From NCBI RefSeq assembly GCF_000004075.3, contig NC_026661.2, forward strand, positions 20,674,307 to 20,738,306: a DNA stretch of 64,000 nt. Reading direction: 5' to 3'. Both the position numbers and the translations under genes were made by a program. The notes beneath the pieces were generated by a model. That model worked only from the letters and a program-made list of their open reading frames with translations, did no database searches and was not told where the DNA came from. The stretch is from Cucumis sativus. Its lineage: Eukaryota > Streptophyta > Magnoliopsida > Cucurbitales > Cucurbitaceae. Position 1 is the first letter of the stretch; each line of letters opens with the position of its first letter. Positions 3,601 to 40,999 of this stretch are shown in pieces.

Positions 3601-3774
3601 AATATGGATAGGTAGGAAAAAATCAAACAAATTTCATAGAACTAAAAAAGTGAATGAGTTTCTGTTTTAGAATTTAGCTAAAAATAATTCATTGAGGATA
3701 AATGAATGTTATATTGTAAATTTCTTTTTAGGAAAAATCTGTTTAATATTAAAAAACAAATTGATGTTTTTTAT

Positions 3775-4794: not shown

Positions 4795-4801
4795 TATAAA
4801 A
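4795..4801 (+). promoter_or_regulatory. Candidate TATA box of AOP-like copy 2
   Basis: TATAAAA lies 67 bases upstream of the start codon at 4868 and would place transcription initiation near 4825-4835. That spacing is normal for a plant gene with a short leader. Sequence-only call. Confidence 0.45.
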
Positions 4802-4831
4802 AAATTGTTCTCTCCTACATAACGAAAAAAA

Positions 4832-4852
4832 TGGTAGCCGAGAGTTATTGAG
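4832..4852 (+). other. Possible six-codon upstream ORF in the AOP-like copy 2 leader
   Basis: An ATG at 4832 opens a frame of six codons (MVAESY) that stops at 4850-4852, 15 bases before the main ATG. If transcription starts from the TATA box at 4795, the ATG would lie very close to the cap, so whether it is used depends on the exact start site. Confidence 0.3.
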
Positions 4853-4867
4853 GTCGTAAGAAACAAA

Positions 4868-7124
4868 ATGGTTTGTGAAGCAAAATCCAAAGTGGTGATT
4901 CCCATAATAGATTTGTCAAAATTAGAGGAAGGCACAAAAGAATGGGGTTTGGCATGCAGAGAGATGAGATTTGGTTTAGAACAATTTGGTTGTTTTTCAG
5001 TGGTTTATGACAAAGTTTCTTTGGAGCTTCATAACTCCATTTTTGAAGCAACAAAAGAGCTTTTTCATCTCCCAATTGAAACGAGAATGAAGAACACAAG
5101 TGAAAAGCCTTACCATGGCTATTTTGGTGGATACTCATTTCTTCCTCTCTATGAATCCATGGCTATTGATAATCCAATTCAGCTACAACCAACTCAGAGT
5201 TTTGCCAATCTCATGTGGCCTACTACAGAAAACAATCACTTCTGGTAATTTCATTATTAACATAGATACGTACACACTATATATAGTACTTATTTTTGTT
5301 GTCCACCATCTGTATATATTTAGTAAATTCAGTTTGATTCTTATGATATTTGGAAGAGTCATTAAACTTCACCATATATGATTAATTCCTCGATGATTTA
5401 TTTAGAATATTATATCACATATGTGTGATTGAAAATTTAAGACTTCTTTTTAAACATAACTAAAATGATCAAATTCACATGTCGGTTGTGCATAAAGATG
5501 ATTTAATTGTTTAATTATTTGTTGATTTCTGAAGAAAAAAATTATTATTTTGGAAAATCACAGTGCCTAACAAATTGTGTTTATTTTCTTCTTAAACTTT
5601 AAAAAGTGTCTAATGAGTAATTAATTTTTTTTTCATATATAGGTCTGTCTAATATTTAATTCTTTTCCTTTTAATTTTATAATAATTTAGTCTCTAAATT
5701 TTGTAATTTTAATCTAACTTTTAAAACAATTCATCAAAATTAAAGGTTAATTTTTAGAAGTATAAGAATTTAGACTTTATAGCTTCTCACGTTAATAATT
5801 AGTTTATTGATCTGCCTAATGCAAGACATCTCACGTTAAAACTTAACTCTGATTTTCACTTAAATCGCAACAAATCTTTTAGAGAAACAAAAATTGTTAC
5901 TTCAATGACCAAAAGTGATTTTGAACCAATTTTAATAATACCTCAAACTTTCAATTCGGTGTCTATGTTGATGACAGTGTAGCTGTTGAACGTTTCTCGA
6001 CATTGGTGGCGAAATTGGAGCATATGGTAACAAAAATGGTGTTGGAAAGCTATGGAGTATCAAATAAGGTTGTGAGTGAACCAATAATGGAGTCCACAAA
6101 TTACCTTCTTCGACTCTTCAAATACAGAGTAGCTGAGAAAGATGAAAACGATGTTGGTTTGCATTCCCATACTGATCTAACTTTCTTATCCATAATTCAT
6201 CAGCATCTCATTTCTGGTCTTCAAATTCAATTACTTGATGATCAATGGCTCGAAGTTCACCCCTCATCTCATTGCTCCTTCACTGTCATGGCTGGCGATG
6301 CACTCATGGTAACTACACACCAATCCTTTCTTTTTGTTTTCTTTTCCCACAAAATTTAGGTCATGAACGTTAGTTATCGGATTAGAGAATATAATTATAA
6401 GTTTGTCTCGTGAAACCATATGATTGGAGGCCACAAGGTTGGATTTGCAAAAAAAATGAACTTTTAATTAAGAGGTTATACCCATATCTGTTATTTCTTA
6501 AAAACATGCATATATGAAAATATAAATTTAGTCTATCAACTTTATGATAGTTGTGTCAATCTTTTTATTTAATATCTAAGAGGTTAATATAGGTTTGGTT
6601 TTAACCATTCTATGAACTTTAAAAGTATATCTATTGTTGTCTTCTCTTATTGATCAACTCCACATGTTCAAGTTTCTGTTCTTTCATTTATGATTATTTT
6701 ACTAACCCCAACTCCGTCATATATGTTCACATTTTTTCGTTACTCAAGCTTTATCGTCTCATCCATAAATTTAACAAGAGAAGCGGCCTTCATCAGTTAC
6801 TTTCAAAGGAAAAAACTTTCAACTTTTCAAAGTTTGAGGAGTTATATAATTAACCATACATTACTTGATTGGTGGGTGTAGGCATGGAGCAACGAGAGAA
6901 TAAGGTCTTGCAGGCATAGAGTGATAATGAGAGGAGAGGAAACAAGATATTCAATTGGGATGTTTTCATTCAAGAATGGGAGAATTGAAGTACCTCAAGA
7001 GTTTGTGGACGATGCCAACCCACTACGTTACAAGCCATTTCATCATTATGATTTCCTTACTTATGACAAAGCTAATGCTTCTCATAAAACTATCTCTCGT
7101 ATCAAAGATTATTGTGGCCTTTGA
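4868..7124 (+). CDS. AOP1-like 2-oxoglutarate-dependent dioxygenase, copy 2
   Basis: Three exons at 4868-5244, 5978-6308 and 6882-7124 encode about 316 residues. Intron phases (2, then 0) match copy 1, and the last exon has the identical length of 243 bases, as expected of tandem duplicates. The Fe(II) ligands are the HTD motif (H190, D192) and H248 in CRHRV. The 2-oxoglutarate-binding arginine is R258 in TRYS. The exon 1/2 junction restores the family-typical HFC, a cysteine where copy 1 has serine. The start at 4868 is chosen because it aligns with copy 1 and gives full family length. The product should be an active soluble dioxygenase of unknown substrate. The two copies have clearly diverged in sequence, so the duplication is not recent. 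Confidence 0.9.
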
Positions 7125-10339: not shown

Positions 10340-11530
10340 TTTTAATTTTTTTTTTTGAAAAAGATACGTTGGATCGGTAGGTGCATTCAAACATTTCCAC
10401 TAGGTTGATCAACCCCAAGAGATAAATGGTGTCTTTTGAGAGATCAATGGTAGATTTTTCCTTGCCTTTGAAAATGCTATTATTTCTCTCCAACCATAAG
10501 ATCCATAACACCAATGCAATAGTATTAAAAATGATGATACCTCTTTTGTTGCGTTGTTTTATTGAGCAAAGGAAAGAACACAAGAAAACAACATTCTGCT
10601 CTTGGTTGAAGACCTTCAAGCTTGTTCCATAGAATTTTAGCAGTATGACAATCTATGAAAATATGGTCAATCTCCTCTGAGTGTCTTTTACATAAAGAAC
10701 ACCAATTTGAACTCAGATTGAGAGTTGAAACTTTTCTCTGAAGAATGTCAGCAGTGTTAATACAACAATGTAAAAGAGACCATATGAAAAAACGACATTT
10801 CTTGGGGATTTTGGTTTTCCAAAGTTGAGAAAAGATGTTAACATCAATATTAATATCATCTCTTTGGTTCAAGCTAAAAAAGACTTTCTTAACAGAAGCA
10901 ACGAAAAATTTACCATTAATGTTCAATTTCCAAGTGGGATAGTCAATAGCTCTACTATCATTTGGGGTTTTGAAATGTCGCTTGATTTCATTCCACTGCG
11001 CATGATGTTCACAATTTCGAAGGGATCTTCTTGGTTTGAAGTCCCAATCCAAAATGCTACAATTCCACATGTCTTTTACGAAGCCATTTTGGATGGTAGA
11101 TAAGGCAAATAACCATGGTTTATGTGTATACGGGGCTGATCTCACACCAATTTCCTTTCCAAAAGGAGAGATTTTCGCCATTGTTTACCGTCCATTTGAT
11201 TTGAGCATTATACCAGTCGACACCTTTGATAATATTTCTCCAAGGAGCTATCAAAGCGAACTATATTTTCCATATGTAGACAACTCTCCAATGAATGTCT
11301 GATTATATCTAGCAGTAATAACTTTTTTCTAGAGGGGATCAGCTTCAGTATGGAATCTCCATAGCCATTTACACAAGAAGGAAAAGTTGGTATCTGCTAT
11401 TTTATGTATACCTAGACCACCATTTTCAATAGGAAGAGTGACTTTGGACCATCTATGGAGGTGGGTAAGCTTGTCTTCATTTTTGTTCTTCCATAAGAAA
11501 TTTCTTCAATATTTTTCAATTTTTTTTACA
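10340..11530 (-). mobile_element. Non-LTR retrotransposon (LINE) 3' fragment, degenerate
   Basis: This is the best-preserved retroelement piece in the window. Reading the minus strand from 11530 downward, broken frames give a reverse-transcriptase C-terminal segment (NFLWKNKNE, then WSKVTLPIENGGLGIHK and FLCKWLWRFH). A longer open frame (11181 to 10525) follows, with the zf-RVT domain: FFIWSLLHCCINTADILQRK, WCSLCKRHSEEIDHIFIDCH and ILWNKLEG. A tail frame (10619-10320) has LWILWLERNNSIFKGKEK. Stops and frame changes between these segments, and the absence of the endonuclease and main polymerase motifs, show a 5'-truncated dead copy. Related fragments lie at 3249-3600, 3775-4300 and 27945-28400. 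Confidence 0.85.
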
Positions 11531-13808: not shown

Positions 13809-15013
13809 TTAGCCTACTTTAACCTGGCTGTGATCATTAACGTCTAACAGTCCAGTGAGAGGTGCGCAAAGACGAACGGATGAAAGTGCGTTGTTGAAGT
13901 GCTCAGCTTTTTTACGAAGGTACTCAGTCCAAGTTACCGTCCGGTAAAGGGGGGGTTGGGTTGGACCCAAAAGTTTCTTAAGCGGTGAAATTTCGGCGCT
14001 TTCCGGCGGCCCAAAAACGTAAGCCACTGAGAGACGTTTCCTGGTCCGGTTCACAACAGCTTGATGAACCGGACTTGGGTACAAACCGTTTGTAAGAATA
14101 TGAAGCAAGTCTCCAACTTGGACGACTAGTGCACCGGGTACTGGCTCCACCGTCACCCATCGGTTTCCTTCTCTCAAAACTTGTAACCCTCTCGTGTTGT
14201 TTTGATACACAATGGTTAAGAGGCTAGTGTCAGTATGAGCCCCGAGTCCCATGGCTCGGTCGGGATCCGGGCAGACCGGGTAGGAGTTCAATTGAGTGGC
14301 TGCATTACTTGTCTTGAAATCCCCATTCGGGCCGGCCCAATTCACATCCTCTCGTGTTATGCCTAATTCTCCCAACGCAACCCACATCAGCCTTCCACAT
14401 AGACTCTTCATCTCTCGGTCATATTCCTCCACTATATCACTACAAATTTCAAAAATAATAAGACACCATATAAAATAAAAAATAAAAATAAAAATGATTG
14501 AAGGTGACTGTAAAAATACCAGTAACGAGTGTAGTCATGAGGCCAGAGTTTTCGGAAGTGTTCGAGAGGGGAACCGACGATAGTGAAGCCTTCCGACCAC
14601 ATACGTTTAGGGAAGAAGGAGGAAATACGGACAAGACCGTAACCAGAGATACCGTCGGAGGGACGAGCGGCCTTGAGTTTATGTGGAGGAGGAAGGGAGA
14701 AGAGGGAATTAGCAGAGGATTCAATGGAGTGAAGGAGGGAAATGGGAACACCATGGTTAATGACTTGGAATGCCCCCCAAGTACGGAAGGCATTGCCAAT
14801 GAGTTGAGGGGCATTAGGGAGAGAAAGGTCAATTAAAGGGATGGAATCAGAGAGATGATTGTTAGAAAGGGAAGAACTAGGGAAAGAATCGGGTTGAATC
14901 CAATCATAGGAATCGGGTAGTTCATGAAGAGAATCAAAGTCAAGGTTTTTGTGAATGGGAATATGAACGGGGTGAGATTTGAAGACTTCTGTTATTTTGA
15001 TATTGCTCCCCAT
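13809..15013 (-). CDS. GA3ox: Gibberellin 3-beta-dioxygenase, array member A
   Basis: Two exons at 15013-14520 and 14439-13809, with a 79-base phase 2 intron, encode about 374 residues, the normal GA3ox length. The enzyme 3-beta-hydroxylates GA9 and GA20 to the bioactive GA4 and GA1. Visible features are the N-terminal DSYDWIQP segment, IPLIDLSLP, the WSEGFT motif, NSYPVCPDP before the HTD iron ligands (H233, D235), H290 in PVHQAVV, and the 2-oxoglutarate arginine R300 in RKRLS. The start is supported by alignment with members B and D. A TATA box lies at 15089-15097. Its intron is the shortest of the four genes. Some cucurbit GA oxidases are multifunctional, so the exact regiospecificity is inferred from overall similarity. 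Confidence 0.92.
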
Positions 15014-15088
15014 ATAGACTTGGAAAGAATGTTTTTTCTTTAAGAGGAAATATAGGAAGGTTAAGGCAAGAGGTTACAATATAGTTGG

Positions 15089-15097
15089 TATTTATAG
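15089..15097 (-). promoter_or_regulatory. TATA box of GA3ox-A
   Basis: The minus strand reads CTATAAATA, 76-84 bases upstream of the ATG. The same string occurs at the matching position in GA3ox-B and GA3ox-D. A conserved GTTGTCAGCATC box lies just upstream at about 15117-15128. Confidence 0.7.
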
Positions 15098-16310
15098 AGA
15101 TCATGGCTTTGTAGATGCTGACAACTTCTCTCAACTCACACCCAAACTCATAATATGAGAGAGAAATATTTATGGAATTCCCCATTTGTACCTACCTTTT
15201 TGCAGCTTAATACAACCATATAGAAAATTGAACACATAACGTTTTTTGGACTATATTTGTTTTGATACTATCCTACGAAGATAAATTTAATATTGTATCA
15301 TTCAACAAAGATAAGTGTAGTTTGAAGTGCAAGTAGATAGATTGAAATAGACGGGAGAATAGTGACAAAAGGTGGGTGTGAAGAGGGTAGTATAATGTGT
15401 GTGTGTGTTGGAAGGAGTGGTGGTTTTTTCACCATTGTTGAGTGGTGTTGAGGGAGGAGAGTTAATGGAAGGAGACAAGAAAAGAAAGGGGAGTGAGTGT
15501 TTTGTATTGGACAATACAAAGAACAAAATATGAAAGGACCATTTTGTCCTCTCCAACAAAACTATCTTAACTACAAAACCCTCTTCTCCCTATACCTCTC
15601 TCTTATTCTTCTTCTTTTGCTTTCGTTTAATAATATTTTTGTAAATAGTATATATATATATATATATAAATGAACAAGAAGTGGCATACATATATTTCCT
15701 ATATACACATACACACACACATATATATATATATGTATTTTTTTCATTTTAAAATAAAGGATTAAAATTTCCATCAAAGTTAAGAAAACATACACTGCCC
15801 TTTCTCCATGTGCCTTTGTCTTGTCTTCAAGTAGAAAACCATCTAAATCAAACATACCCCCCCCTCTCACTCTTCCTCTCTTCCTCTCTTCCTAAAATAT
15901 ACTCACTCTAAATTACATGACAATACTCCTCTTTTCATTTTGACCATATTACCCTTCCTCTTTTATTTATATAATTTTTAATTAAATATGGGCTCCACTC
16001 ACAAGAGAAAGAAAAGTTCAAATCTTACACACATGCCTTTCAATATATATATATATATATATCTGGATACATCTTCAAGGGAAATCTTGTCTCTTCCCCC
16101 ACACAAAAAGAAAAAATGAAAAATGAAAAATGAAAATTAGAGAGATCAGTAAAATCTGTAAAGTAAAATTCAAAGAGGTGGGTTGTGCTGTGTTCGAAAT
16201 TTTGGATATTTCTTCTATATATATAAACAAAAACAATTAAAAGATTTAGGCATTAGCTATGAAAAGTAGTAAAGTTTGTTTTGGTCTTTAGCAGTTATAT
16301 TTTGAGGGGA

Positions 16311-16334
16311 GATAGATAGATAGATAGAGATAGA

Positions 16335-16369
<35 letters not shown>
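16311..16369. repeat. GATA/GA microsatellite
   Basis: GATA repeats grade into a GA run over 59 bases. The corresponding site in copy D has only a short GA-rich remnant, so the repeat expanded in copy A or contracted in D. Confidence 0.95.
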
Positions 16370-17756
16370 TTATGTATATTTTTGTTTTTTTGTCTTTGTC
16401 TCTGTCTTGTTGAGACCAATGTGGGGCTCCAAAATTTATCTACATCAACTTTGTATCCTCTCTCTCTCTTTTCCTTCTTATACTCCTACCATATTTATTA
16501 GGGCTGTCTATAAACTTTCCTTTCCTTATGTTTAACTTGATTTAAAATGTCTTTAAAAACATGTCTAAGATATGTTTTAATGATTTTATTCAAGTTTGTC
16601 ACCCTTCCTCTAATTACTGATTTCAAAATACACAACCCTAGCTCTTTATTTCTTTATTTTTTAAAAACAATATACAAGGAACATACAACCAAAACAAGAT
16701 GAAAAATGTTAGTGAATTTGATCAATAAACATGATATACATATCTTTCAAACTTTATTTTTTATTTCACTCAAAAGCTTTCATATTATTACAGATAGTTC
16801 ACATCTCTTATGTACGATCATTTCCCTTATTTTGTTACTGTGGAACTTTGATGGCATTCCAATAATTTTTCTCCTTGAACAACAAAGGATCACTAAGGTC
16901 TTTCAAATAGTCTTCTACTCTTTGAATTACGCAGTAGGTGTATTATTGCAAACTCAACCATGAAGTAGTCAACCATATGAATTGTACACTTGAAAATACA
17001 TTGTCCATTTTGAAGGTTCAACAACATACATATATACCTACCGTGACTACATCTTCCGAGGCTCCCACTTCTTTGTTTAGCACTCAAGGATTTCACCGAT
17101 ATAGCCATGTTAATTAGGAGGCATAGTTCCTATACCAATGTTTGAAGAGAGTTGATTATGTTGAATATAAAATTACCATATATAGGAATACATATACATC
17201 TTCTCAAATGTATGACCAGGAGTTGTTGCGGTTGTTGAAAGAAACATAACTCTTATCCAATGATCTCATCTATTTTAAGATTTTCTTGAATAAGATACTA
17301 GAGTTAGAAGGTGAATCTGAAATATCTTAAGTAAATTGAAAAATCAATAGCACCTCCATCCATGCCTTGTCATCAAAAGCGATTGAACAAGAATCCCATT
17401 TATTTAAGGTTGAACCATTAATTTTCTTCTCTTCTATATGATCATAACCACGACTCAAAACCCTCGTCTCTTGCATTTTGAGTGGTTATGAGAGAGGACA
17501 TAATTAAAACAAGAAGATTTTATGATGTCATTTGTTGTCATGCAATTTCATGCCATCCCTCGTTGGAATGACCATAATATATGGGACATAATTCCAACAT
17601 TGAAATACATTATACTATGGTCATTTTACATGCATATGCTTTTCACGTGGCCCAAACATCATGAGGTCGGGTCATTTCATATACCACAAATCATGCTTTA
17701 ATTTGCTACCTCCAATATATATATCCACACGAAAACAAATCAATCTATCAATCTCT

Positions 17757-17779
17757 TTCTCTCTCTCTCTCTCTCTCTT
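17757..17779. repeat. (CT)n microsatellite
   Basis: A CT run of about 22 bases in the non-coding region upstream of GA3ox-A. A second CT run lies at 20761-20777 beside a T tract. Confidence 0.9.
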
Positions 17780-20700
17780 CATATATATAATATATATGCT
17801 TATGCAATGACATTTCAAACTCTGTGTACATATGGTAACGTATAATATTTGTTATTGATCTTATTAAGAAATATGTATAGAAGAAGAATATAGAAGTTTG
17901 AAGAATATTTGTTGAAGAAAAGTGGGGATTGATATAGTAATATAAAAAACTTTTGGAATTATCGCGGCCTTCTGTTATTAGAGCTAATGATTTTGGCTAA
18001 GAATATATTGTATGATATAAAGAGAGCAAAAGATTCTTTTGGTTTGGACCTTATTGGTTTCCATCATTTTCATTTTCAACAATGTGCTCCATGTTATTCA
18101 TTTGAAGTTGACATTTTTCATATTAATTCGTTATTTTTCTTTTTAATTTCTTTCAATTATTAAAAAAAGAAAAAAAAAAACACCAAGAAAAATTAGATTT
18201 CCCAATTAGTAACTTTTACTAGTTTTTGAAGTTTTTAATGGTTGAAACAACTAATAAGACAAAAATGGCATCTGAAAAATAGTTCAACAATTTGGCTTGA
18301 CTTTGGGACAAGACCACTCGTATATATATATGAAATATATATACACAACAACAAAATGACCTATTTTTATAGCCTCTCTGATATCTCTCTCTTTCTCCAC
18401 TTCTAGCTTATTCAAATTTACTAATGTCTCTATTGAAAAAAAAGGCAATAATAGATGGAAATGAGGGGAAAAAACAACAAAATGGAAAAAAGAAGACATT
18501 AATTCATGTGTAAAAACGATGCTATATTTGCCTATTTTCAACGATCATACAACCAAAAACTATAATGCTTTAAATATGTTACTTAGTATCTTGAATGATC
18601 AAATAACATTGAACCTAAGTTGTGTTATATATAACCCTTAATTCTATTAGCTTTTTGTAATATGCATTATCTAATATGTTTCTTTCTAATAATTATAAAG
18701 TATGGATCTTCTTCATTTATTTTTTTATTCAATTACACAAATCACTATTTCAAGTTTAGTAAAGATGAAAATCCTATTTGAAAAGAAACACTCAAAAAGG
18801 AAAATCAAAACCATCACTAGAAATCAACACATATATATGTGACACCTAATCATGCGTGAAAACGGTGGAACAATAGAAAAAATAATGGATTGGTTTATTT
18901 TTCTACTTTTGATCATATATATATTAAGACATGCAAAACCTAGCTACCAAGGTTTGTATGTTGTCAAGTTTAGGGAAGAAAACAAAGTGAGCAAGAGACA
19001 ACAAAGGTATAGGGGAGTAGAATGACACTTGTCGCAGTCGAGTTGGACCGTCCTAAGTTGCCCCTAGTTAATATGTTGAGGTAAAATCAAATCCAAAGTA
19101 CATATCAGAAAACATAGGTCATGTTTTTTTTATATATATGATCAAACATAACCAAAAAATGTTTAGTTTTATACCAATTCATTGGTATTTGCTCTTTCTT
19201 TCCTGATGATTCATATTCTTGTGGAAATGTTTGTGTTGCTTCAGTGTGGGCTCTCCCCACTAAAAAATAAATCCGTACTTGAAAAAGAAAAGAAAACAAA
19301 ATCAAATCAAATGAAATTTTCTTTTCTTTTGTTTTGTTTCTCAAAATTAGCTTCATAAAGAAAAAATGACTTTATTGACATAATGGCTCATATTCATTAC
19401 ACTTTTCAAATTAAGCATGAACCAATCCTTATTCATGTATGCTTCAATTATAATTTAGAATTATTGGGAAGAATCAGAACTTTGAGAATTAGTTTATGGT
19501 AATTATAAAAAGTTTTGAAGACTAAAAATCAAATTAGTCTAGAAGAGAGTTTAGGTCTAACTCTGAATTCGCTTATAATTATAATTATGAATGATTAGTA
19601 TATATATATATATATAGTTCATAGATACAAAGCTAAAGTATATGAATTAATAAAATCGATAACAAATTAAAAAAAGAAAAAAAGAGGATGAGTATAAAAC
19701 AACAAACAGAAAACACTATAGAAAAAACTTCAATACATGGGGTGTAAAATTAAATTTTATGATGATCTAAGTAACAAATCAAAAGAAAAAAGAAAGATCT
19801 GATTTGAGTGTGAAGATATATATTTGGTTAAATGAGAATAGTACATTAGTAGAAAACACTATTTAAATAGTAATATTATAGTAACATTATTACATGAAAA
19901 TTTGTAGTGGTTTGTGACACACATTTTCCTCCCTTTTTAAGCACTTTAATGGGGAGAAAATGTCAACGAAATAATATATTTGTTAATATAATCATACTCT
20001 AATAACATATAAAATAATTAAGAGTTAGAGAGGATTGTGACAATGCTTTACTTTTAATTACAAAACTAATTAAATTAAATCATCACTCAGCGGCAGAACC
20101 CTAAAAGAAAAACCATTCTTTTTGTTGTGTTTTTATTTTATAATTATTCAAACCGCATGCAAATTTTTGGGTCAATCTCACCCTTTTTAGCCAATAAATA
20201 GATAAAGATTGATTTGAGCCTTATCTGAGAGAGACTAATAATAATTTTAAAAAAGGTGTTGGGAAAAGAAAAGAAAACCCATTAGAATAATGATATTAAA
20301 TAGATTGTGTCATTAATCTAAAAAAAGAAAGAAAAATCAAAGCATGGGGGGCAACTAGATCAAAAGAAAAGATGGTTGATTTCAAATTTCCCACTAGTTT
20401 TTTTCCCATTATTTTTTATGATTAATATTTATTTGTTTATTATTGACAAACCCAAAAACACCTTTTCCCCCTTTGTCAAACTAATCTTTCCAATTTTACA
20501 TCTAATTAGCTCAACATTATAATTACCCATTTTAGTAATCATGGAGAAAAGGGGGTTTAAACATCAAAACTTTTTGTCAATTTCCCAACTAAATGTTCAT
20601 TATCTTTTCATAATTTCCAACTATAATTTAATTGAAAGACGTTTAACCTAAAAACCATGACCCCATTAATTTGTTCATTAAGGCCTTCTTTTTTTATATA

Positions 20701-23150
20701 ACAATTTCATTTTTTTTTTATTTTAAAATTTATGTATAGTGGTTTTCTCTTTTTTTTTTTCTCTCTCTCTCTCTCTTTTAATTAAACATAGTTTAACTAA
20801 TATATAGATTTCTTACTCTTAGTTTTTAAAGGTTATAGTTGGTTTTCTTACAAAAGTTTACAAGATTATATATATAAGCATGAACTCCTCTCTCATCTCC
20901 ATGATAGTAGCTCTTGTTCTCAAACTACTTATGGGAGACAACCTAGTCTAAATGAGTATCAACCACCGTTAACCTATTTGTTTTAGCAACACATTGGGTG
21001 GATTTTCTAAACCAGTACTCTATTTCATACTATGTTACAATGATAATAATAGGTATAGTTAACCCTAAACAAAAACCATACAATCTATATATATATATAT
21101 GACACAACTTTAAGAATAGCCTTCAAAATCAAAAGAATTATCTTAGGAAATATAGTTATTGTTATTGCATTATGGTTAATTACAAAAAAAGAAGAAGAAA
21201 AAGTGGAGAATGTATTTAGACAGATTTTGCACATAGTGAAACAAGTTTCTTGGAAAACGTCAAGACAGGATGCAAAATTAGAATATTTTTCTTGTTAAAA
21301 AAATCAGCCAACCCATTGTACCATGACACTAACTAAGTGAACATTATCATATTGTTGTGTAGATATTATTAGAGGTTCATTATTCCGATTGATATTATTA
21401 TTCAAATTTTAAAATAAATTTTGAAATGCCTTGAATTTGTTATATAGTACGACAAATAATTTAATACAGGATCTCACTGACTCCTAAAAGCTCTCTTTAG
21501 TTTTTGTAATTGAGCATATGTAGTTACTTGCGATTTTAATACTAGGATTTAGAGAAGTATATTTATATAAACTCTCCAATTTTGTATAGATAATATTCTC
21601 TCTAATAATATTTATTCTCCCTCTTGCTAATACATTGTTAATGAACTACGTATATTTGTGTTCATCTTTACGTAATTTCGTAACAAAAAAACAAAGAGCG
21701 GAAATTTTAAAAACTATTTTTCTCATGTTTCAAAACCTTGCTCTAATTTTAAAAAAAAAATCCTAAAAAGATAGATAACTAAATAGAGAAATCTCAATAG
21801 GTGAAAACAAATAATATTAATCCATATATGTTTAGGAAAAGAAATGAATATAATATACATGTTAATTCCATTCTAGTGGTAGTTATTGTTCATCATCTTG
21901 ATCATAATATAATATATGGTGGATCCTCTAGGGCAAGATCTCCCCAAAGCACACAGTTGATTGCACTAGAAAGCAATATTTTTTCCCTTTTACAATTTAT
22001 ATACTAAAATAATAATAATAATATATATTCCTGCTTCCAACAAATCACATGACTATAGGCAGCAAAAAATATATAAAAGCAAAGTGACAGAAAAATGGTA
22101 ACCCTAAGAGAGAAGTGAAGGATAGAATTGAAAAGATGAGGACAAAAAGTAGGAAAGGGCATGGCTCTGATGGCAATTTTCTGACCTTACATTCTATATA
22201 TTTAAATATTAACAATCTTTATCCCATATCCATTGTTTTCAAATTAAGCTTCTCTTTTTTCTTCATCACCATTATCATCTTCTTCCTTTTTTGTTTTGTT
22301 TTGTTTCCCTTCACTCTCTTGACTGTAAAACATATATACCCCATAAACTAATATTATATTATTATTTATCAAATTATAAGTTATAAGATAATAATAAATT
22401 GTGTAGGTGGCAGACCAGAATGTGACAAATTTCACTATTTTGAAATCTAGGGCTTTATCTTTCTTTTTCTTTTCCATTTAAATTTTATATATATTATTGA
22501 TCTTTGGCAACTTATTTACATGTTGGATTATAATATAATATACATGGGGGGTATTTTGAAAGGGCAAAAGATCAGATAACTTCCAAAGGCTTGTCTGCCA
22601 AGGTAGATTTACCAATGAATATATAATTAATTATATATATATTTGTAAGCATTGAAAGGAAAAATGAAAAAGTTAGGAGAAATTCCAAATAATGTTATCA
22701 TCATTGGCAACCTAGCTAGCTAATTTTGCTTTTCTCTAGGTTTTTGCCTTTTCTTTTCCTTTTTAGTCTACTTTAATTTCTAGCTCCTAATCTAACATTC
22801 TTTTTACCTCATTTTCCTCTTGTTTTCTTAGAACAGATACAATAACACTAAAACTTCATACCTACTTATCTAATTTAGTATTACTCTCGTCCAGATACGA
22901 ATTAGTCATAGTATATCCACACCCTCTCAAGTTTTGCTTTCAAACTAATAGAAATGATTGTACAAGAATGTTTGTCTTTTTTAATTTTTCTTTTCATTCA
23001 TTGAATATAGTCTGCCCATTTAAACATCCCAATTTAAAGAATCCACTGCCCTTCATTATATTCTATATATCCTCAAATCATGGAAGAGAGAGACTATGAA
23101 AGAGATAGGAAGAAAATCTGATTTTATTTGTTTTTGGAGTTCCAAAGATT

Positions 23151-26100
23151 AGGTGAAGAGACAAGATATTAAAAAGAATAATTAAGAAACCCTAAAAGAG
23201 AGGTCATTATTATTGAATTTGGATATGTAGATATATATGATGGATATAAGAGAGAGGGCTTTATATATTGATCAAATCAATATGTTCAATAATATATAAT
23301 CATTAATCTTGTACTTAAAATTAAATACTAATAATAATCATTAAATCTTATGTTTTTTTTTTCTCTTTTTCTCTCTTTTTTTTTTTTTTTAATTTCTGAG
23401 GATTAAATAATAGTCTGCTAGAGCATTTAGTTTATTTTTCATTCAAATTTTCAATGAAATAATGAAGGGCAGTATGGCCGATAATTGCCTTTTGATTATT
23501 GTACTGAGTCCAAGAATTAAAATATTTCTTGGGGAATGTATTCAATTATTGTTACGTAAGAAACACATGTGTGGAGAATATAAAAAAAAGACTCCATTCA
23601 ATTATATTGTGTGTGAATATATATACATACATACACACACTGACACACACACACATATACATAATGTAAAATGAAAAAAAATATATAAAAGATCAAAAAG
23701 TTCATTTACCACAAGGAACTATAGATCAAGATAGACTTTATTATATGTTTAGGATATCCATCGTGAATCTATCAACTAAATAGTGATATTTTCCTACAAA
23801 TATATCCTATTCTAAATTTCATTTTCTCTTATCTAAAAATAGTATTTTACCAAAAAAAAAAAAAAGTTATTTTCATGGAATGAATAGTTATATTTAAGGA
23901 ACATTTTTTTAAATAAAAAATAAACTAAAATATTTATAATATATTAAAATTTTTGGATTCTATCAATTATTTATGAATATGACTAATAGAAACATATTAA
24001 TATCTATAAATGTCTATCTTTGATAAATTACGAAAATTTGTTATATTTTATAAATGTTGTTAACTTTGTTATTTTTGATAATTCTTCTTAATAATTAATT
24101 AATAAAAGAAAAGAATTACAATTAATTTAGATATTAACTTTAAAATTAATTTAATGTTTATCTGAGAATAAAAAGATCTTATAAAATAAATTCCTCCACC
24201 CCTCGATCACTTCCATTCATTTTCCAAGAAAAGATAAAGTTAATCTAAGCGATTGCTATCTTAAGAATAAGAAAATATCTCATCCTCATATAGTAAAATA
24301 ATGATTATACAAAATTTATGTCAAATAAAGCATTTTCATTATTCATTAATGATCAGTTACGTGTAGTTATAATAATTTGCATCTCAAACTTAACTAAAAC
24401 TATTTTTATTCTCCGTAAATATATTGTGGCAAACAAATCCTTGAAAAGTAAAATTCAATTTCTAAATTGGTAAACAATCAAATCAAGATATATGTTTTCA
24501 AATTTTATTTAATCGAGTTCTTGTTTGGAGAGTTGGAATGAAATTCAAATTACTGAAAATAAAAAAGTGTTAAAACTGTGAGTAATTGCGTGAAAACGAA
24601 ACGAAAATGAGATCATAAATCATGAAAAGAGTGAAAAAAGATGAGATTGATAACTGTTGTAACGAAACGAGTTTTAAATTATAAATCAGATTCAAAAAAT
24701 TGAATTATCTTTAAACATAGATTTTGAATTATATTACATTACAAACTCATCTTATTACGAATCCTCAAACATTTCCCGTAAAACTTTTAATTAACAACAT
24801 GAACATAGTCAATGTTAGAATAATCTATATTGTGCGTTATTTTGTTTATATTATGAGGATAATGAAATCTTGAAAAGGGCCTTAGCTTAATCTGGCTCTT
24901 TGCAGTGAAGGCTACTTTAGTTCCTCATATGTATGTATATATTTGTCTTTTTCCTTGCATTTTCTTGCCACACACACACAATCCTAATATCCATTGCTTA
25001 AATCGTTTATTGAAAGATATATAATATAACATATGTATGGTTGAAATTGATACCACCACACATACAACCCACTTGATCTAAATTATTTTATTCATACACT
25101 AAAAATAGGATACTTTTATTGCACGTATGTGAGAAACATACAAAATAACATGAAAGCAACTTAATAGCGATTAGAGCTAATAGAAGTGCCATGATAATTA
25201 GAAGAAAAAAAATTGAACTTAAAATAGGACTAAAGAGGTTGCAACAATTTATTGATTTATATAAAGAAGTAAAAGTTTGGAAGCAAATTATTTTGAAATG
25301 ATTAAAATAATTTTTGTATGGTTGAAAATCACTCCAACAAAATTAAATTGAATATTTAATTTTATATAAACAAAATTTATATTGATTTATCAAACATTTT
25401 CAAGTTGATTTTGAAAACGATGGCATAAACTCAATTCTCCTAACTGTTTTTTTTATACCCCACGGTAAAATCAGTACTAGATTTAGAGGTTGAGCTATCT
25501 TAACAAAACACTATACATAGTTAAATATCACATATTCAAATGATTGGTAAGTAATAATGTGCTAAGGCATCTCATATATACATATAGGTCCAAATATATA
25601 AAAGTTAGAGATATAGAAGTGTTTAGACAGCAAAAACACCAATAATAACGAATGAAAACTTAATTAATCTGAGCATATAGGAGAAGATCGTGATGATGAC
25701 AGGAAGGAGTTTTGGAAAGAATAGGAAGGAAGTTGACAAAGCAAGAAACAAAGAGAAACTTGGAAAGCTAGCTAAGTACTATACATATATATATGACATT
25801 TAAATAGTTTTGGGGTAGAGAAAGACAATATCAATAGTAATGTGTCTTTGTCCTTTTTACAAGATAAATAAACCCAAAACCATTTTGTATTGTTTCCAAG
25901 TGTTTCAATTTATTCCTATTTTCCAACAATCTCATTCACTCCTTTTCTAATGGATCATTGCAAAACTAGCCACCACTTATTTTTTTATGTGGGCTATATT
26001 TTTTTTCTTTTAACCAGCCCTAGTACACATTTAGGCGAAACAGACCATTCCAAACTGTGTGTTTGATATTTTGAAAAAAATTCATTAATCATAGAGGAGG

Positions 26101-27000
26101 AGCAGTACAAAAGAGGAGATAGAGAAAAGTCGAAATTAAGAAAAGTCACAGGAAAGTGGGAGAAAGCAGATAAATTCAGAGCAATGGAGGATGAACTATA
26201 TTATTATTATTTGTAAGTGTGTTTGATATATATACTATCTGGTTGTGTGTTTGTTTTACTTTGCAATCTTTGAATGGTTAGGGTTGTTGCAATATGTGCG
26301 AGTTGTGATCTTCATTTTGTTCACCTCAACCTAAAAATCGAATCAAGTTGATTGGTTATAGAAAGTTTCAGCTTCACTTGAATAGACTATTTTTCTTGTC
26401 TAATTCAACTCAACTTGTATAACGTTGAATAAATCAAACTTTTTCACTCTAACTTCTCATTCGTCTACCATAAACAACAAAATTGAAATAAATAAATAAA
26501 TAAATTGTTAGTTCTACAAAAGTAATAATTATTAATATCAAACTAAGTGGGAGTTCCATGTTATAGTCAAAAGTAAAGATCTTACATTTCCTTTGGATTT
26601 ATTATGGTCTTTAGTTTAATTTTTATATGATAGCCTTTAGGTTTTCTATTTTCTATTTGTTGAGTAAAATCAAAATAGACAGTGGGCTACTCATGCTAAA
26701 CTTTCCACCCTTCAAAATTAATAATAAACAAATAAAGTATTTTGTTTTTCTCCACTTAATTTCTAATTTATTTGTTTCGTAAGTATCTATTTATGAATGT
26801 GGTGGAAACAAAATTTGTTCAATTATCAACTCAATAATCAAAATTTTACAAAATTTTCCATTGGCATGATGAGGCACCAACAACAAAAAGCATAAATTTT
26901 TGTTAAACAATGTCATATTATTGAAGTGAATAAATAAAATTTGTATTGTCTTTATCAATAAGATTGTAACAAATAATGTAATCAAATGAGCAATAGAATA
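23151..27000. other. Distal non-coding DNA upstream of GA3ox-A, no gene seen
   Basis: This 3.8 kb stretch is AT-rich, with T and A tracts (23346-23391, 23850-23865) and many TA microsatellites. I found no exon-like frames with family motifs on either strand and no clear match elsewhere in the window. Confidence 0.55.
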
Positions 27001-27490
27001 TGAGAGTTATTTACAAGCAACAGAGAAAAAGACATCTGACATGGAATGAACAACCAGCCTAGCAAATCTATTTCTGTAATAATAATAATAGTAGTAGTAA
27101 TAATAATAAAATAAAAACAGCCTAGCAAATCACATTTCAAAATTCAAGCAGAAATAATTCTTTTTATTCTTGGAAAAAAAAGAAAGAAAAAAAGAAAAAG
27201 AAAATCCATGCACTAATACTAATGCAAAAATGAAAGAATAATAATCTTTATTGCATGCACATGCAATGGAGGCCATGGAATCCATCACACAATAGCAAGT
27301 TGGTATTTAAGTTTTGTAGGGTAATCTATAAAAGAGACAATAGAAAAAACAAAAAGAAGTGAAAAGGATAAATAAAAATAAAATAAAATGTTTTGAGTTT
27401 TATTTTGGCTTTGGCTTTAGCTTTAACTTTGGCTATGGTAGATATATAGAGATCTTCTTTGGGCACATGCACTTGTCTTCTTCTAAAATA
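27001..27490. promoter_or_regulatory. Duplicated distal element, copy upstream of GA3ox-A
   Basis: This block matches 34235-34600 (upstream of GA3ox-B) along most of its length, and its last 100 bases match 48190-48300 (upstream of GA3ox-D). Shared parts include CAGCCTAGCAAAT-like sequence, the palindrome TTGCATGCACATGCAA, AGCAAGTTGGTATTTAAGTT, TATAAAAGAGACA, a GGCTTT-rich tract, GGGCACATGCA and TTGTCTTCTTCTAAAATAT. It has no convincing ORF. It is either a retained piece of the duplicated unit or a distal regulatory or non-coding RNA element. Confidence 0.55.
27251..27266. promoter_or_regulatory. Palindromic RY-type motif, copy A
   Basis: TTGCATGCACATGCAA is an inverted repeat of TTGCATG with a two-base spacer. 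It contains CATGCA, the RY core bound by B3-domain factors such as FUSCA3 and LEC2. It is identical at 34352-34367. Binding is inferred from sequence alone. Confidence 0.45.
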
Positions 27491-27944
27491 TCGTCAAAAG
27501 TATTGTGATCGAAATTATGAAGATGCTAAGAATCTGTTTGATAACGCTCATGTTTTCTATTTTTTATTTTTCATGTTTCTCGTTTCTTCTTTTTTAAGAA
27601 CAAAAAACAGGAGTATATGTTTGATAACTATTCTTCGTTTTCTGTTTTTAAATAAACAAAAAAACATAAACATAAATTTGTTTGATAATTCTTTCTTGTT
27701 TCTCGTTTCTCCTATTATTTTTCTCTAACATTTTCCCTTCATTTTTCTTTTTATTTAGATATAATATAATGATGTAAAAAAATATATATACACAATTCAT
27801 TAAAATATGAAAAAACTAGACATTTTCAAAAGTATAAAAAAATAAAACTACTTACAAATTATAACAAAATTCATTAATCTCTAGTCCAGTTTAAGTTTTC
27901 TTTTCTAAAGAATCTAATCATATATTTAAAAAGCAGATTTTTTT
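27491..27944. other. AT-rich stretch, possibly dispersed-repeat derived
   Basis: It contains three similar phrases of the type TTTGATAA...TTTTCT...TTTC (27537, 27620 and 27680 areas), like degenerate copies of a short T-rich repeat. The open frame through it is low-complexity and rich in F and L, and is not credible as a protein. Confidence 0.35.
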
Positions 27945-28400
27945 ATCGCCCTTACCGCCCAATAAAAAAATTATTGGGTCAGCAGACGCACCCGAGCATC
28001 TCTACAAGGTGGATATTCCCTTAGCGCCCTTATCATTCCCGCTTCATTAATAATCAAGCAAAGATAGTATAGAAAGTAGGAAGAAGCTAGTATAAAAGAC
28101 TAGTGATAAGCTCGATACAAAAGACCCAAAAAAACTAAACAAAAACTTGAATATTTAAGGCAATAGAACTGACATTGTAGTTAGTAAAAAACTTTGATCT
28201 AGTAGACTAGAGGCCTCGTGAGAGCACAAGCATCGTCCCATAGCTCGCACTTGGATCTTTCTTTGCTTTCGAAGATTCTTTGGTTCCTTTCCAACCACAT
28301 TAACAACAATAATACAACAATAAAGTTGAAAGTAATGACCCCTTTTTCGTAGTACTTCTGATTTATAGAACATATCTCCTCGATGACACACAAAAGCTAA
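27945..28400 (-). mobile_element. LINE 3'-end fragment, minus orientation
   Basis: The minus-strand frame at 28393-28199 contains VLLLLMWLERNQRIFESKER, which matches the zf-RVT tail of the LINE at 10340-11530. The non-coding tail down to 27945 matches the 3' tail of the copy at 3775-4300 (GGGTGC.TCTGCTGACCCAA-like end and a GGGNNTATCCACC-like core). Only the last part of the element survives. Confidence 0.7.
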
Positions 28401-29804
28401 TGAAAAATTGCATCAAATGACAAAAATATTTAAAAGAAAAATATCTCATAACTAATTTTTTTTACATATTACAAATATGATAAAATTAGTGAATATCAAA
28501 CGACTATCAGATAGTAATCATAGGGCTATCAAAATGTCATGATCACTTTTAAATTTGCTATTTTTACAAATTTAAAAAATATTGTAACATACGTTCTATT
28601 ATCATAATTTTTTTTTCTATTTTTGGAAAAGTATCAAACTTAATACATTTAATTAAGTCATACATACAACTAATAGATAAGTATATATGTGAAAGGCTTT
28701 ACATCAGTCCAAAATTGAACACATTATTCTTCTTCTTTTACTCAATTTTCCATTTTTCTCATTGGAGTCAAAATAATAAAAGATGATGTAGTGTGATAAT
28801 AGAAAAAATGAATGTGATTATTTAATATATATGTATGTATGTGTATAATATATATAAAATATGAAATTCCCAATTTATAGATAAAAGTTGTGCGTACGAA
28901 ATTACTGATTAGAATGGAATATTCTATCAAGAAATAAAAAATGAAAAACTTTTTTGAACAAGTTTAAAACTAAAGTAAAAATTACAAGTTGGAGTAATAC
29001 AAAATTAGTCAACTATATAATCTTTGTATGAACAATAATAGACCTCAAAGCCAGTCAAAAAGTTTTTCAACTACACCTTCCAATCAATTTATTGTCAATA
29101 TTCTTTTTCAAATTAAGTTAAAGATTCCATTTAATAACTATTCTTTTTCTAAAAATTAAATTTATTCACTCCATGTTTTACAATAGTTTGTATCCTCCTA
29201 AACAAAATAGTTGAATTAATCTTAACCAAATTCTAATATCAAAAGTATTTATTTTGTTCCGTTTCGAAAACGTTGATAAAAAATACATAATGAAAATAAA
29301 AAAGAAATTTAGAGACAAAAGAGATGTTTTATAAAGGCCTTAATTAACGGTAAACACTAGAAATAAAAAATATTATAGTTATCAAATGTGGTCTAAGTTT
29401 TTCATGTGCATAAAGTTTTTTAAGTTAATTTTGAATTTGGTTAGTTTTGTTGTGACACTAGTTGTATAGATACCAAAAGTTTAAATCGATATAGGCTAAT
29501 TAGAGCAAAATGACGACACAAATAAACCTTAGGAATATCATATATATAGTTTACTAGGCTTGATGAATCAGAGATAGAATCAAAGAGATGCTAAAAAAGA
29601 CATACAAAGAACATTAAGGTGCTTGATAGTGCACTAGGCTTGACGTTAGAAACCCCTCAGAAAATAGTCATGGCATTTGTATACCAAATATTTCTATGGT
29701 TTATATTACATGTAGAAGTACAGCATGAATATAATTAATGTTATGATCACTAACAATGTATATATTTAGATCCGAAACTTATGCAAGGAATTGATTTTAT
29801 AGTT
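28401..29804. other. Intergenic AT-rich DNA, no gene seen
   Basis: It lies between the LINE fragment and the duplicated flank block of GA3ox-B. Only short frames without motifs are present. Confidence 0.55.
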
Positions 29805-29905
29805 CAAACCCTTTTGTGTAGATATTGTATAGATTTGAAAAAAACTGTTGTGGAAGGCAACAAATTCCCACCATTGATATCATGACCAATGAACACAACA
29901 AATAA
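29805..29905. repeat. Duplicated 3'-flank block shared with 8985-9085
   Basis: This is the GA3ox-B side copy of the block described at 8985. It lies 1.0 kb beyond the B stop codon, whereas the A copy lies 4.7 kb beyond the A stop. The LINE fragment at 10340-11530 accounts for part of the difference. A further short match follows (GATTGAAATGGAC at about 9824 and 30409). Confidence 0.8.
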
Positions 29906-30946
29906 ATGGTTTATATTGAAAAAATTATAAAGACTAATTTAGATGTGTTTAGAAGTAGAAATAATAGGGGATAAATATGGAAAAATGATGATATTATGAA
30001 CTTATGTCAAGATTCACATAAACATATATTGTGAATCTTGCTTAAATTAAAAAAAAAAAACACATTGTGAATATGAAACTTCTTTACACATCTAGAATAT
30101 AATAAATATATTTTACAAAGTTAAGTAATATTTCTTGTTGCATTGCATGATAAGTTGCTAGCCCATCATTCATTTTTTTTTTAATATTCACAAGATAAGA
30201 AGTATCAAATAGATGCACCGAGACATTATTTCAACTAAAATTTAAAATAAAGTTTTAAATTTAATTTGTGTATATATGTCTTACAACTAATGATGAAATT
30301 ATATAAACTTTATTTTATCATGAGGGATGATATTAGGGTACTTTGAACTAACAAAGTCAATGTCTATATTTACAAAGTCATTGACGTACTATTTAATTTA
30401 ATTTGATATGATTGAAATGGACCTTAACAGGTACTAGGGTTGGGCAGATTAAATGCACATTTCTACCATATGATATATGTGAAGGATAAAAAAAAAAGGA
30501 CATGCTTCTATTATAACTTGTGAAGAATGCTGTTATATACACTTTTATTTTTTCTATTCTTCGTCTTCGTTCTTTTTCCTTTTATGGATCTTGGAAGTGT
30601 TACCTTTCTTTATTACGTTTTTGAAATATATCTTACATGATTGTAATTAAAGATATGTATATATATAATAATTGTGTTAAGATATTTATGTATATACACA
30701 AACATACATTCAAACTCAAAGATGATAATTGAAGATATGTATATAAATATATAATTCAACAATTTACTATGCCACCTTTTACTTAGGCAGAATAGTAATC
30801 ATCTCTCTTTCTAATTTCTTCAAACTGTATCATCTTTAATTTCAGACACACTGTGGATATATTAGATATTACTACTGACTACACCCACCAACCATGCAAA
30901 AACCTCCCCTGTGATTCAAAATTATTAATTAAAGAAACCCTAAACT

Positions 30947-32560
30947 TCAATTGGCTTTAGTTACATTAATATTTATGCAGTTGGCCAAAATGGGGAAGAT
31001 CTGTATTTTTTCTTTAATTTTCACCTGGCTGTGATCGTTGACATCTGACGATTCAGTAGGAGGAGTGGATAGACGGATAGATGGAAGTGTGTCGTTAAAA
31101 AGCTCAGCTTTTTTACAAAGGTACTCAGCCCAAGTTACCGTAGGGTAAAGTAATGGTTGAGTTGGGTTCACTAATTTCTTAATCGGTGAAATTTCGGCGT
31201 GTACTGGCGGTCCAAAAAAGTACGCCACCGAGAGCCGTTTTCGGTCCCGATTCACTACGGCCTGATGGAATGGACTCGAGTACAACCCATTTGTAAGAAT
31301 CTGTAGCAAGTCTGCTACTTGAACCACCAGTGCACCGGGTACAGGATCGACAGTCACCCACCGTTTCCCTTCTCTCAACACTTGTAACCCACTAGCGTTG
31401 TTTTGATACAAAAGGGTTAAGAAGCAAGAGTCGGTGTGAACTCCAATCCCCATCGCCCTGTCTGGGTCCGGGCACACTGGGTAAGAGTTTAAATTCATCA
31501 CTCCACTACTGGTCGGGAAATCCCCATTCGGTCCGGCCCAATTCACATCCTCCCGGGTTATGCCTAATTCCCCCAACGCAAGCCACACCACCCTTCCACA
31601 TAGACCCTTCATCTCTCGGTCGTATTCTTCAATTATATCACTGCAACAAATTATACATTCTCACTTCTTTGTATATATGTATATAGTTTTAACCATAAAC
31701 TTAAATAAGGCGTATTCCAGTTATCGTTAAATAAATTATCTTATGCATTTGATGAGTTGTAGAACATATGTTATGAAGTTAGGTAGTAACTTTTTCTTAA
31801 AAATATAACCTTAGAGGTTTTTTATTTTGTCTCAACTAAATTCATTCATACATCCTTACCACCTTCGTCATCTAATCATTTGTGCATTCGTCTAAACTTA
31901 TTTGTGTACAAATTTTTAATGTATATATTAAAATTGTTTGGTTTTTGAAAATAATGATAAAATAGTTGATAAAACAAAAGATTGAAAGGGAGAATGTTTG
32001 TGAACCGGAGACAAAATGATTGTCAAACGAAGAAGAGTAATAGACTAATAGTTATACCAATATTTGGTGCAGTCATGAGGCCAGAGTATTTGAAAGTGTT
32101 CGAGAGGGGAACCACTGACGGTGAAGCCTTCAGACCACATACTTTTAGGGAAGAAGGTGGAGATACGAAAGCGACCATAGCCATTGACGCCATCGCGGGA
32201 GCGAGCGGCCTTAAGCTTTTGGGGAGTGGGAAGATCAAAGAGATCATTAAGCAAGGATTCCATAGAGTTGAGGACAGAAATGGGGACGCCGTGGTTAATG
32301 GCCTGGAATACCCCCCAAGTTCGTAAGGCATTGCCGATGAGCTTGGGGGCATTAGGGAGAGATAGATCAATTAAAGGGACAGAGTCGGTGTCGGACGAAA
32401 GATCAGAAATATTGGATTGATCTGTAAAGGAAGGGAAAGAGTTGGGTTGTACCCAATCATGAGAGTCGGGGATTTGTTCAAAAGAGTCAAGGTTTTTGTT
32501 GGTGAGAGCGTGGACAGGGTCGGTTTTGTAGGCCTCGATCATTTTGGGGATGGTGGCCAT
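30947..32560 (-). CDS. GA3ox: Gibberellin 3-beta-dioxygenase, array member B, extended C terminus
   Basis: Exons at 32560-32058 and 31640-30947, with a 417-base phase 2 intron, encode about 398 residues. The core is complete: WSEGFT, NSYPVCPDP, HTD (H236, D238), H293 in PFHQAVV and R303 in RKRLS. The protein is about 24 residues longer than A and D. Where A and D end after HSQVKV or HNQVKV, B reads on as VKIKEKIQIF and further. The DNA of this extension aligns with the 3' UTR of GA3ox-D, so the ancestral stop codon has been lost and UTR is now coding. The catalytic domain is intact, so activity is expected unless the tail destabilises the protein. The start is supported by the conserved ATxPK-like N terminus and by a TATA box at 32648-32656. 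Confidence 0.9.
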
Positions 32561-40901: not shown

Positions 40902-40984
40902 ATATTAATATTTAGATGTTATGTTATATATTGTGTTGTTCAGAAATGAGGAATTTAAATAAACAACACCATTGTCTTCTAGTC

Positions 40985-40993: not shown

Positions 40994-40999
40994 AGGTTA

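Follow-up and report, generated by a model that had tools for sequence, protein, structure and literature searches.

Conserved non-coding blocks upstream of two tandem GA3ox genes in cucumber as putative cis-regulatory modules

The enzyme GA3ox makes active gibberellin, a growth hormone. In the 64,000-nucleotide stretch of Cucumis sativus DNA analysed here (the window, with positions counted from its first letter), four GA3ox genes form an array beside two 2-oxoglutarate dioxygenase genes, with GA3ox-B and GA3ox-C positioned between GA3ox-A and GA3ox-D. The original prediction, made from this DNA, was that the upstream regions of A and D share a dozen collinear non-coding blocks, owing either to a fairly young duplication or to retention as long-range regulatory sequence or an unannotated non-coding transcript. 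Which explanation do the blocks favour?

The block row shared by GA3ox-A and GA3ox-D

The predicted dozen was borne out, with 12 blocks by blastn and 14 after realignment. A permissive blastn comparison of the two upstream regions (E ≤ 1e-3) aligned 12 blocks in a single collinear chain, and realignment of the gaps supplied two extra blocks (4 and 9 in Table 1). The total for A and D is 14, of which 13 (A 15436-23181, a span of 7.7 kb; D 41366-45772, 4.4 kb) lie inside the region originally considered and one, distal block 14, beyond it. TATA-like boxes adjoin the start codons of A, B and D and the blocks are therefore placed upstream of the core promoter.

Table 1. Genes, conserved blocks and RY cluster in the window (identities over ungapped columns)
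Feature	Position (A side for blocks)	Partner position	Strand	Details
GA3ox-A	13809-15013		-	exon 1 15013-14520, exon 2 14439-13809; spliced ORF 374 aa; 2OG-FeII_Oxy domain
GA3ox-B	30947-32560		-	C-terminal extension
GA3ox-C	35817-37666		-	N-terminal stretch lost
GA3ox-D	39621-40901		-	exon 1 40901-40405, exon 2 40248-39621 with stop; spliced ORF 374 aa
Block 1	15436-15531	D 41366-41467		84% over 96 columns
Block 2	16216-16290	D 41471-41538		90% over 67 columns
Block 3	16377-16837	D 41568-42005		75% over 424 columns; contains GAGACCAATGTGGGGCTCCA; well-conserved portion 16377-16577 (stricter HSP)
Block 4	17609-17636	D 41849-41875		21-bp exact match including RY site (17629); overlaps weak end of block 3 on D side
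Block 5	17848-18247	D 41999-42387		85% over 363 columns; contains TGGTTTGGACCTTATTGGTT; top-scoring
Block 6	19155-19207	D 42507-42558		77% over 52 columns; E 5.6e-4
Block 7	19288-19437	D 42674-42829		73% over 146 columns
Block 8	19745-20103	D 42894-43218		74% over 311 columns, 62 gap columns; alternative overlapping pairing 19956-20193 with 43500-43725
Block 9	20115-20253	D 43658-43797		66.8 bits, local realignment; RY site 20156/43689
Block 10	20322-20513	D 43799-43971		79% over 168 columns
Block 11	21810-21939	D 44234-44364		76% over 124 columns
Block 12	22100-22713	D 44439-45124		79% over 585 columns; contains CACTATTTTGAAATCTAGGG; longest
Block 13	22981-23181	D 45539-45772		82% over 196 columns
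Distal block 14, A-D	27403-27508	D 48201-48311		85% over 105 columns; E 9e-17 (genome-wide search)
Distal block 14, A-B	27247-27503	B 34347-34596		E 8e-33 (genome-wide search); B copy 1.8 kb upstream of GA3ox-B
RY cluster (CATGCA/TGCATG) upstream of GA3ox-B	32937-34366		.	10 sites at least 8 bp apart; last two adjoin

Three strings quoted in the original prediction as keeping their order do so as exact pairs: GAGACCAATGTGGGGCTCCA (starting at 16412 in A and 41606 in D), TGGTTTGGACCTTATTGGTT (18040 and 42207) and CACTATTTTGAAATCTAGGG (22433 and 44812) each occur exactly twice in the window, both copies on the same strand. Between the upstream regions there are 15 exact complex plus-strand matches of at least 15 bp, 13 of them collinear and two off the chain, against one in the minus-strand control. 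The collinear matches fall within seven in-region blocks and are absent from the remaining six, and blocks 6, 7 and 8 are weak. The chain scores 1165 bits, compared with 109.5 for the minus strand. Across 42 comparisons that had other regions of the genome as one partner or as both, the best chain reached 378 and came from a stray, partial copy of one fragment of A; the runner-up reached 117.

Between A and D the spacing of the blocks varies by a factor of almost two. The largest gap inside the D row is 440 bp, and the A row has one gap of 1.3 kb (20513-21810). The expectation that the row would be densest at 21905-22760 against 44335-45135 stood in part: the longest block lies there, but the top score belongs to block 5.

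Age of the duplication and the neutral expectation

A young duplication is not borne out. The A-D dS is 0.72, 0.65 or 0.59 by three methods (bootstrap interval 0.57-0.91 for NG86), and identity at fourfold sites is 57%, a comparison that rests on few sites (82 of 144; 95% interval 48-65%); the duplication is thus not young. GA3ox-A is moreover the outgroup of B, C and D in a rooted tree. An older GA3ox-like pair on C2 matches exon 2 of D at 48% and 45% identity, and its flanks gave only shared matches that we judged to be AT-rich noise.

The original prediction held that block identity equal to the synonymous level, together with a lack of conservation in outgroups, would mark simple leftovers of duplication. 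Block and synonymous identity are not equal: 12 blocks have 79% identity over 2637 ungapped columns, against the 57% at fourfold sites. In neutral simulations of the A-D divergence (100 replicates per setting), the chain score at d ≥ 0.59 never exceeded 735, and exact complex matches of at least 20 bp numbered two or fewer in every replicate, where five are observed. Together, the excess identity and the simulations support retention as putative long-range regulatory sequence. The blocks would accordingly qualify as conserved non-coding sequences (CNS), having diverged less than DNA of equal age that has no function, a comparison that depends on the neutral rate.

That dependence matters since, at d=0.40, neutral simulations do reach the observed chain score, and the argument for selection holds only if neutral non-coding DNA changes at a rate not much lower than dS. 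The blocks could then be neutral leftovers in a region mutating well below the synonymous rate, their clumping the work of chance and indels, and the spacers of A and D do differ by insertions, some of them repetitive (16307-16390, 21483-21680). We regard this as improbable: it requires a rate of about 0.6 of dS, and even at d=0.40 the five exact complex matches of at least 20 bp exceed every one of 200 replicates (maximum four). Selection, and not a locally low mutation rate, probably lies behind the conservation.

Gene conversion between A and D, in place of selection on each copy, might also have kept the blocks alike. The two are tandem paralogs, and exon 2 is more similar than exon 1 (dS for exons 1 and 2: 0.82 and 0.66 for A-D, 0.65 and 0.39 for B-D, 0.58 and 0.29 for C-D); because the exons differ, the dates may have been made less sharp by conversion in exon 2. 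For the blocks, however, conversion would have to have acted in 14 separate islands, sparing the spacers and the synonymous sites, and to have left a nearly twofold difference in spacing, which makes it very unlikely.

Coding, repeat and RNA content of the blocks

Within the genome the blocks are nearly single-copy. Apart from the two stray matches given below, no further copies were reported among the 40 of 139 candidates scored in one search or the 34 of 34 in another, and distal block 14 has no copy beyond A, B and D in a genome-wide search. For 19 bases of GAGACCAATGTGGGGCTCCA, genome-wide matches at zero to two mismatches fall only at the A and D sites, and the other 30 matches all have three. 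The notion that the blocks descend from a protein-coding gene or a transposable element could draw on two stray copies, namely of the A fragment 19394-19910 at C7:13.668 Mb and of 56 bases of block 12 (22106-22161), matched at 95% on C5. We find it scarcely credible. A transposable element common to A and D was rejected because the blocks do not recur, on the candidates scored, while the repeats between them do (in A the two insertions given above, in D 43318-43428). A protein-coding remnant was rejected as well: there is no ORF of at least 110 aa at 15074-30946 or 40905-51809, gap lengths ignore the reading frame (20 of 147 are multiples of three, in 11 blocks) and the best translated match occurs in overlapping frames.

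The missing long ORFs would also suit an unannotated long non-coding RNA duplicated with the gene, of which the blocks would be exons or promoter parts; they are scattered, in kept order, over several kilobases of gene-poor DNA. Rfam gave no match in the blocks, the sole match in the window being a tRNA outside them, and in 16 fold tests (eight stretches on both strands; z -0.93 to 2.81) none was markedly stabler than shuffles. Such a transcript is unlikely on these grounds, and a known RNA or hairpin was rejected. The blocks thus appear to encode neither protein nor known RNA.

Candidate regulatory modules in a four-gene array

We consider it likely that the blocks are CNS, the cis-regulatory modules of an ancestral GA3ox gene, kept by purifying selection before both A and D. 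An old tandem duplication, separating A from the ancestor of B, C and D, would have copied the modules along with the gene; selection would then have retained them at A and D while the intervening DNA diverged and gained insertions. They would most likely be docking sites for transcription factors, distributed across about 8 kb at A and 4.5 kb at D together with the distal module, presumably with enhancer or silencer function, and would set the place and time of bioactive gibberellin production by the A and D enzymes.

The kind of arrangement is known. A 'Bigfoot' gene is defined by at least four CNS across a non-coding space of 4 kb or more (PMC3708275), and A and D, each with 13 blocks over the spans given above, have that count and extent, as short ordered conserved islands around paralogs. 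An exact match of 15 bases, mentioned in that account as a standard, occurs in the seven blocks noted above and not in the other six. Its CNS pairs derive from whole-genome duplication or speciation, and from each tandem cluster it keeps only the copy richest in CNS, whereas here tandem copies are compared. By that account transcription factors and response genes are over-represented among Bigfoot genes, few CNS are found at metabolic genes, and GA3ox is a metabolic enzyme. Our searches of the open-licence PMC literature brought up no prior account of conserved non-coding DNA upstream of GA3ox, the hits concerning flowering-time engineering and seed longevity, which is weak evidence of novelty; as far as these searches show, the GA3ox-A/D case is new.

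The watermelon Cldf locus is similarly laid out, with adjacent GA3ox genes (Cla015407, Cla015408) beside two 2-oxoglutarate dioxygenase genes, although two GA3ox genes are described there against four in cucumber (PMC6885051). Judged from layout, Cla015407, a mutation in which gives a GA-deficient dwarf (PMC6885051), would correspond to GA3ox-A. The main text of that paper does not use the word 'promoter'. For dwarf watermelon (PMC6885051) and dwarf sponge gourd (PMC8440308), a GA3ox defect has been reported as the cause or the likeliest cause, and a map of likely far-upstream control modules offers targets for tuning stem, seed and fruit growth in cucurbits with the enzyme untouched. A published cucumber survey took 1.5 kb as the upstream region (PMC6213227); on the D side nine blocks out of 14 start farther than that from the start codon, and on the A side 11 out of 14 start beyond 2.5 kb.

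With its four tandem copies the array also amounts to a natural experiment. Two have the module row; upstream of GA3ox-B blocks 1-13 were not found and the distal module alone is present; upstream of GA3ox-C no block was detected. We infer loss in B and C rather than a shorter original duplication. The B and C proteins evolve faster than A and D (branches of 0.23 and 0.41 against 0.083 and 0.093), recalling the Arabidopsis paralogs that have fewer CNS with more coding change (PMC4906602), although those are alpha-duplicates with expression data and the cucumber copies are known from their sequence.

The commonest conserved 6-mer across the blocks is the RY/B3 site CATGCA. None of the 12 main aligned blocks contains an instance; conserved ones appear only once blocks 4 and 9 and the A-B pairing of block 14 are added, and the RY site is therefore a post-hoc lead. 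On the A side they lie at 17629, 20156 and 27252-27466, the last within distal block 14 (27247-27508; sites at 27252-27265 and 27466). GA3ox-B has 10 RY sites in 2 kb, where 0.95 would be expected. GA3ox-D has four upstream, GA3ox-C four before D is reached, and the nearest 2 kb of the A promoter none. RY sites likewise lie upstream of Arabidopsis GA3ox2 (AtGA3ox2), which is reported to be under FUS3/LEC2 control and a direct target of the RY-binding factor FUS3 (PMC8701892, PMC3296646, PMC3813988); the cucumber case differs in its RY-free proximal A promoter and in being drawn from sequence. Binding by B3-domain factors of the FUS3, LEC2, ABI3 or VAL kind is accordingly a prediction, offered as a suggestion.

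A regulatory swap within the array may be entertained tentatively, with the odds against it. A and D would keep the ancestral long-range row, broad control and slow evolution, and B and C, having lost the row, would have specialised, B through its dense RY/B3 cluster around the distal module. The result would be a split between vegetative and seed gibberellin, with a distributed enhancer exchanged for a B3/Polycomb-type switch. Among 19 motif cores scored for presence, TTGAC, CCAAT, GAGAGAG, GGNCC and others also have conserved instances in the blocks.

The GA3ox array and its upstream blocks

The genome searched comprises 226.6 Mb in 88 contigs, and the window occupies C7:20674307-20738306. 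The species is probably cucumber (Cucumis sativus): one copper-protein fragment of the genome agrees with the PDB entry 'cucumber basic protein' in 61 of 65 aligned residues. The window carries four tandem genes, A, B, C and D, whose exons were set by splicing at a junction common to all copies; their naming in the original prediction, the domain and the gene layout identify them as putative GA3ox enzymes. Together with the two dioxygenase genes near A, this layout resembles the one reported for watermelon around the dwarf gene Cla015407, in the Cldf interval (PMC6885051). In a 2018 cucumber survey the sole tandem GA-oxidase pair given is a GA7ox pair (PMC6213227); if the window is from cucumber, the annotation used there may lack some of the four copies.

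Features of the window
Feature	Position	Strand	Remark
Two tandem dioxygenase genes	472-6359	plus	near GA3ox-A
zf-RVT (reverse-transcriptase zinc-binding) frame	10525-11184		
GA3ox-A	13809-15013	minus	
GA3ox-B	30947-32560	minus	
GA3ox-C	35817-37666	minus	
GA3ox-D	39621-40901	minus	
tRNA-Asp (GTC) gene	38959-39030	minus	between GA3ox-C and GA3ox-D
Row of blocks upstream of A	15436-23181		
Row of blocks upstream of D	41366-45772		
Distal block, A-D match	27403-27508 / 48201-48311		
Distal block, A-B match	27247-27503 / 34347-34596		A copy longer than in the A-D match
RY cluster upstream of GA3ox-B	32937-34366		window's densest

The proposal that A and D share collinear non-coding blocks upstream is confirmed. 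A sensitive comparison (E<=1e-3) of the two regions yielded a single chain of 12 blocks, and each of the three strings originally quoted occurs exactly twice in the window, with the order kept. Realignment of the gaps in the chain added two blocks; 13 blocks lie inside the region first described and one, the distal block, lies beyond it. The chain scores 1165 bits, against 109.5 for a minus-strand control. In 42 control comparisons with or among other genome regions one reached 378 and the others at most 117. The score of 378 arises from a stray partial copy of the A upstream sequence (19394-19910) about 7 Mb away (positions 3538-3997 of locus L021, C7:13.668 Mb). We take the DNA around this copy, from its open frames, to be chloroplast-like and transposon-like.

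The upstream distance of the distal block from its gene is 12.2 kb for A and 7.3 kb for D but only 1.8 kb for B. D aligns well over about 110 bases only, and forcing all three copies into one alignment over the full stretch gives modest identities (A-B 71%, A-D 60%, B-D 56%).

Block conservation and the age of the duplication

For A and D, dS is 0.72 (NG86), 0.65 (YN00) or 0.59 (ML), and pairs among B, C and D give 0.32-0.49. In the protein tree, which includes the two nearest C2 relatives, A falls outside B, C and D with support of 98/95, the order within these three being open. The tree and the higher A-D dS together indicate that the split of A is the oldest in the array. Values for exon 1 and exon 2 differ (A-D 0.82/0.66, B-D 0.65/0.39, C-D 0.58/0.29), an unevenness to which gene conversion within exon 2 may have contributed.

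The original prediction called for block identity to be set against synonymous divergence. Across the 12 blocks, counted without the two gap-fill blocks, identity is 79% in 2637 ungapped columns, compared with 57% (82 of 144) at A-D fourfold sites. Since blocks are selected for their similarity, neutral evolution was simulated from a 6-kb ancestor (the D sequence compared is 4.9 kb), using five distances and two indel rates with 100 replicates each. At d>=0.59 the chain score peaked at 735, so that no replicate reached the observed 1165, and exact complex matches of at least 20 bp numbered at most two per replicate against five observed. The maximum score was 1143 at d=0.50. At d=0.40 the observed score was reached, with exact matches still at most four against five; the result therefore depends on a non-coding neutral rate not much below dS. 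Under looser scoring, where the observed value was 1092 bits, all 60 replicates fell short of it at d=0.65 and 0.75, but some did not at d<=0.55. This version is less telling because the whole simulated sequence aligns at low d.

Nature and distribution of the blocks

On our best reading the blocks are conserved non-coding sequences (CNS) that belong to a putative multi-module control region of GA3ox, which two of the four tandem copies have retained. Sequences of this kind are already known from intragenomic CNS and Bigfoot genes (PMC3708275). Our literature search returned no published case in which such a row is absent to a graded extent among the tandem copies of a metabolic gene.

The blocks are nearly unique in the genome, in searches that scored 40 of 139 candidates in one case and 34 of 34 in another. 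The exceptions are the stray L021 fragment and a 56-base match on C5, in which window 22106-22161, overlapping block 12, is 95% identical to L022 1616-1671 (C5:13643115-13643170), closer than to the D copy. A coding signature is absent, with gap lengths a multiple of three in 20 of 147 cases (11 blocks), and the best translated match reappears in an overlapping frame. Open frames of at least 110 codons are absent from the two gene-poor stretches. The sole Rfam match in the window is the tRNA, outside the blocks, and 16 RNA fold tests (eight stretches, both strands) were unremarkable. In A, B and D a TATA-like sequence adjoins the start codon, so the blocks are not core promoter.

B carries the distal block only, and no block was detected upstream of C. 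With A as outgroup, a row common to A and D is ancestral to all four copies; its absence from B and C reflects either later loss or duplication events that did not include it. These two proteins have branch lengths of 0.23 and 0.41, respectively, against 0.083 for A and 0.093 for D, and pairwise dN/dS runs from about 0.2 (A-D) up to 0.7-0.9 (B-C). The C-terminus of GA3ox-B is changed, extending about 23 residues past the usual end (window 30947-31640), and GA3ox-C is missing about 30 residues near the N-terminus. In Arabidopsis paralogs, CNS loss is reported to go together with changes in the coding sequence and with expression that is lower and more specific (PMC4906602).

RY elements as a lead

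CATGCA, which forms the core of the RY element to which B3 factors bind (PMC3296646), ranks top of 180 words of the same composition when only 6-mers shared unchanged by the two copies are counted: it has six conserved occurrences, where the mean is 0.18. These represent four independent places: two A-D sites (17629/41868 and 20156/43689), a count tied by three other words there, and four within the distal block shared by A and B, of which three overlap. One paper (PMC3813988), with reference to Curaba et al. (2004), describes Arabidopsis GA3ox2 as a downstream gene that FUS3 targets directly.

Upstream of B, a stretch of 2 kb holds 10 RY sites where 0.95 would be expected (Poisson 7e-8, uncorrected for having looked), and three sites in the cluster (33251, 33337 and 34250) share the longer form GTTACATGCAA. 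The maximum is six in 121 two-kb windows of sampled loci, some from the GA3ox cluster, and three in five further 8-kb regions. Checking ruled out that the cluster is one tandem repeat. The nearest 2 kb upstream of A contains no RY site. As a lead, RY control of B is plausible, and a role of the blocks in RY control of A and D is uncertain. Mild enrichment is seen upstream of D and C (four sites each, P ~0.01-0.02).

Separately, two stretches of about 300 bases, at window 3757-4060 and 10414-10709, are inverted copies of each other with 82% identity.
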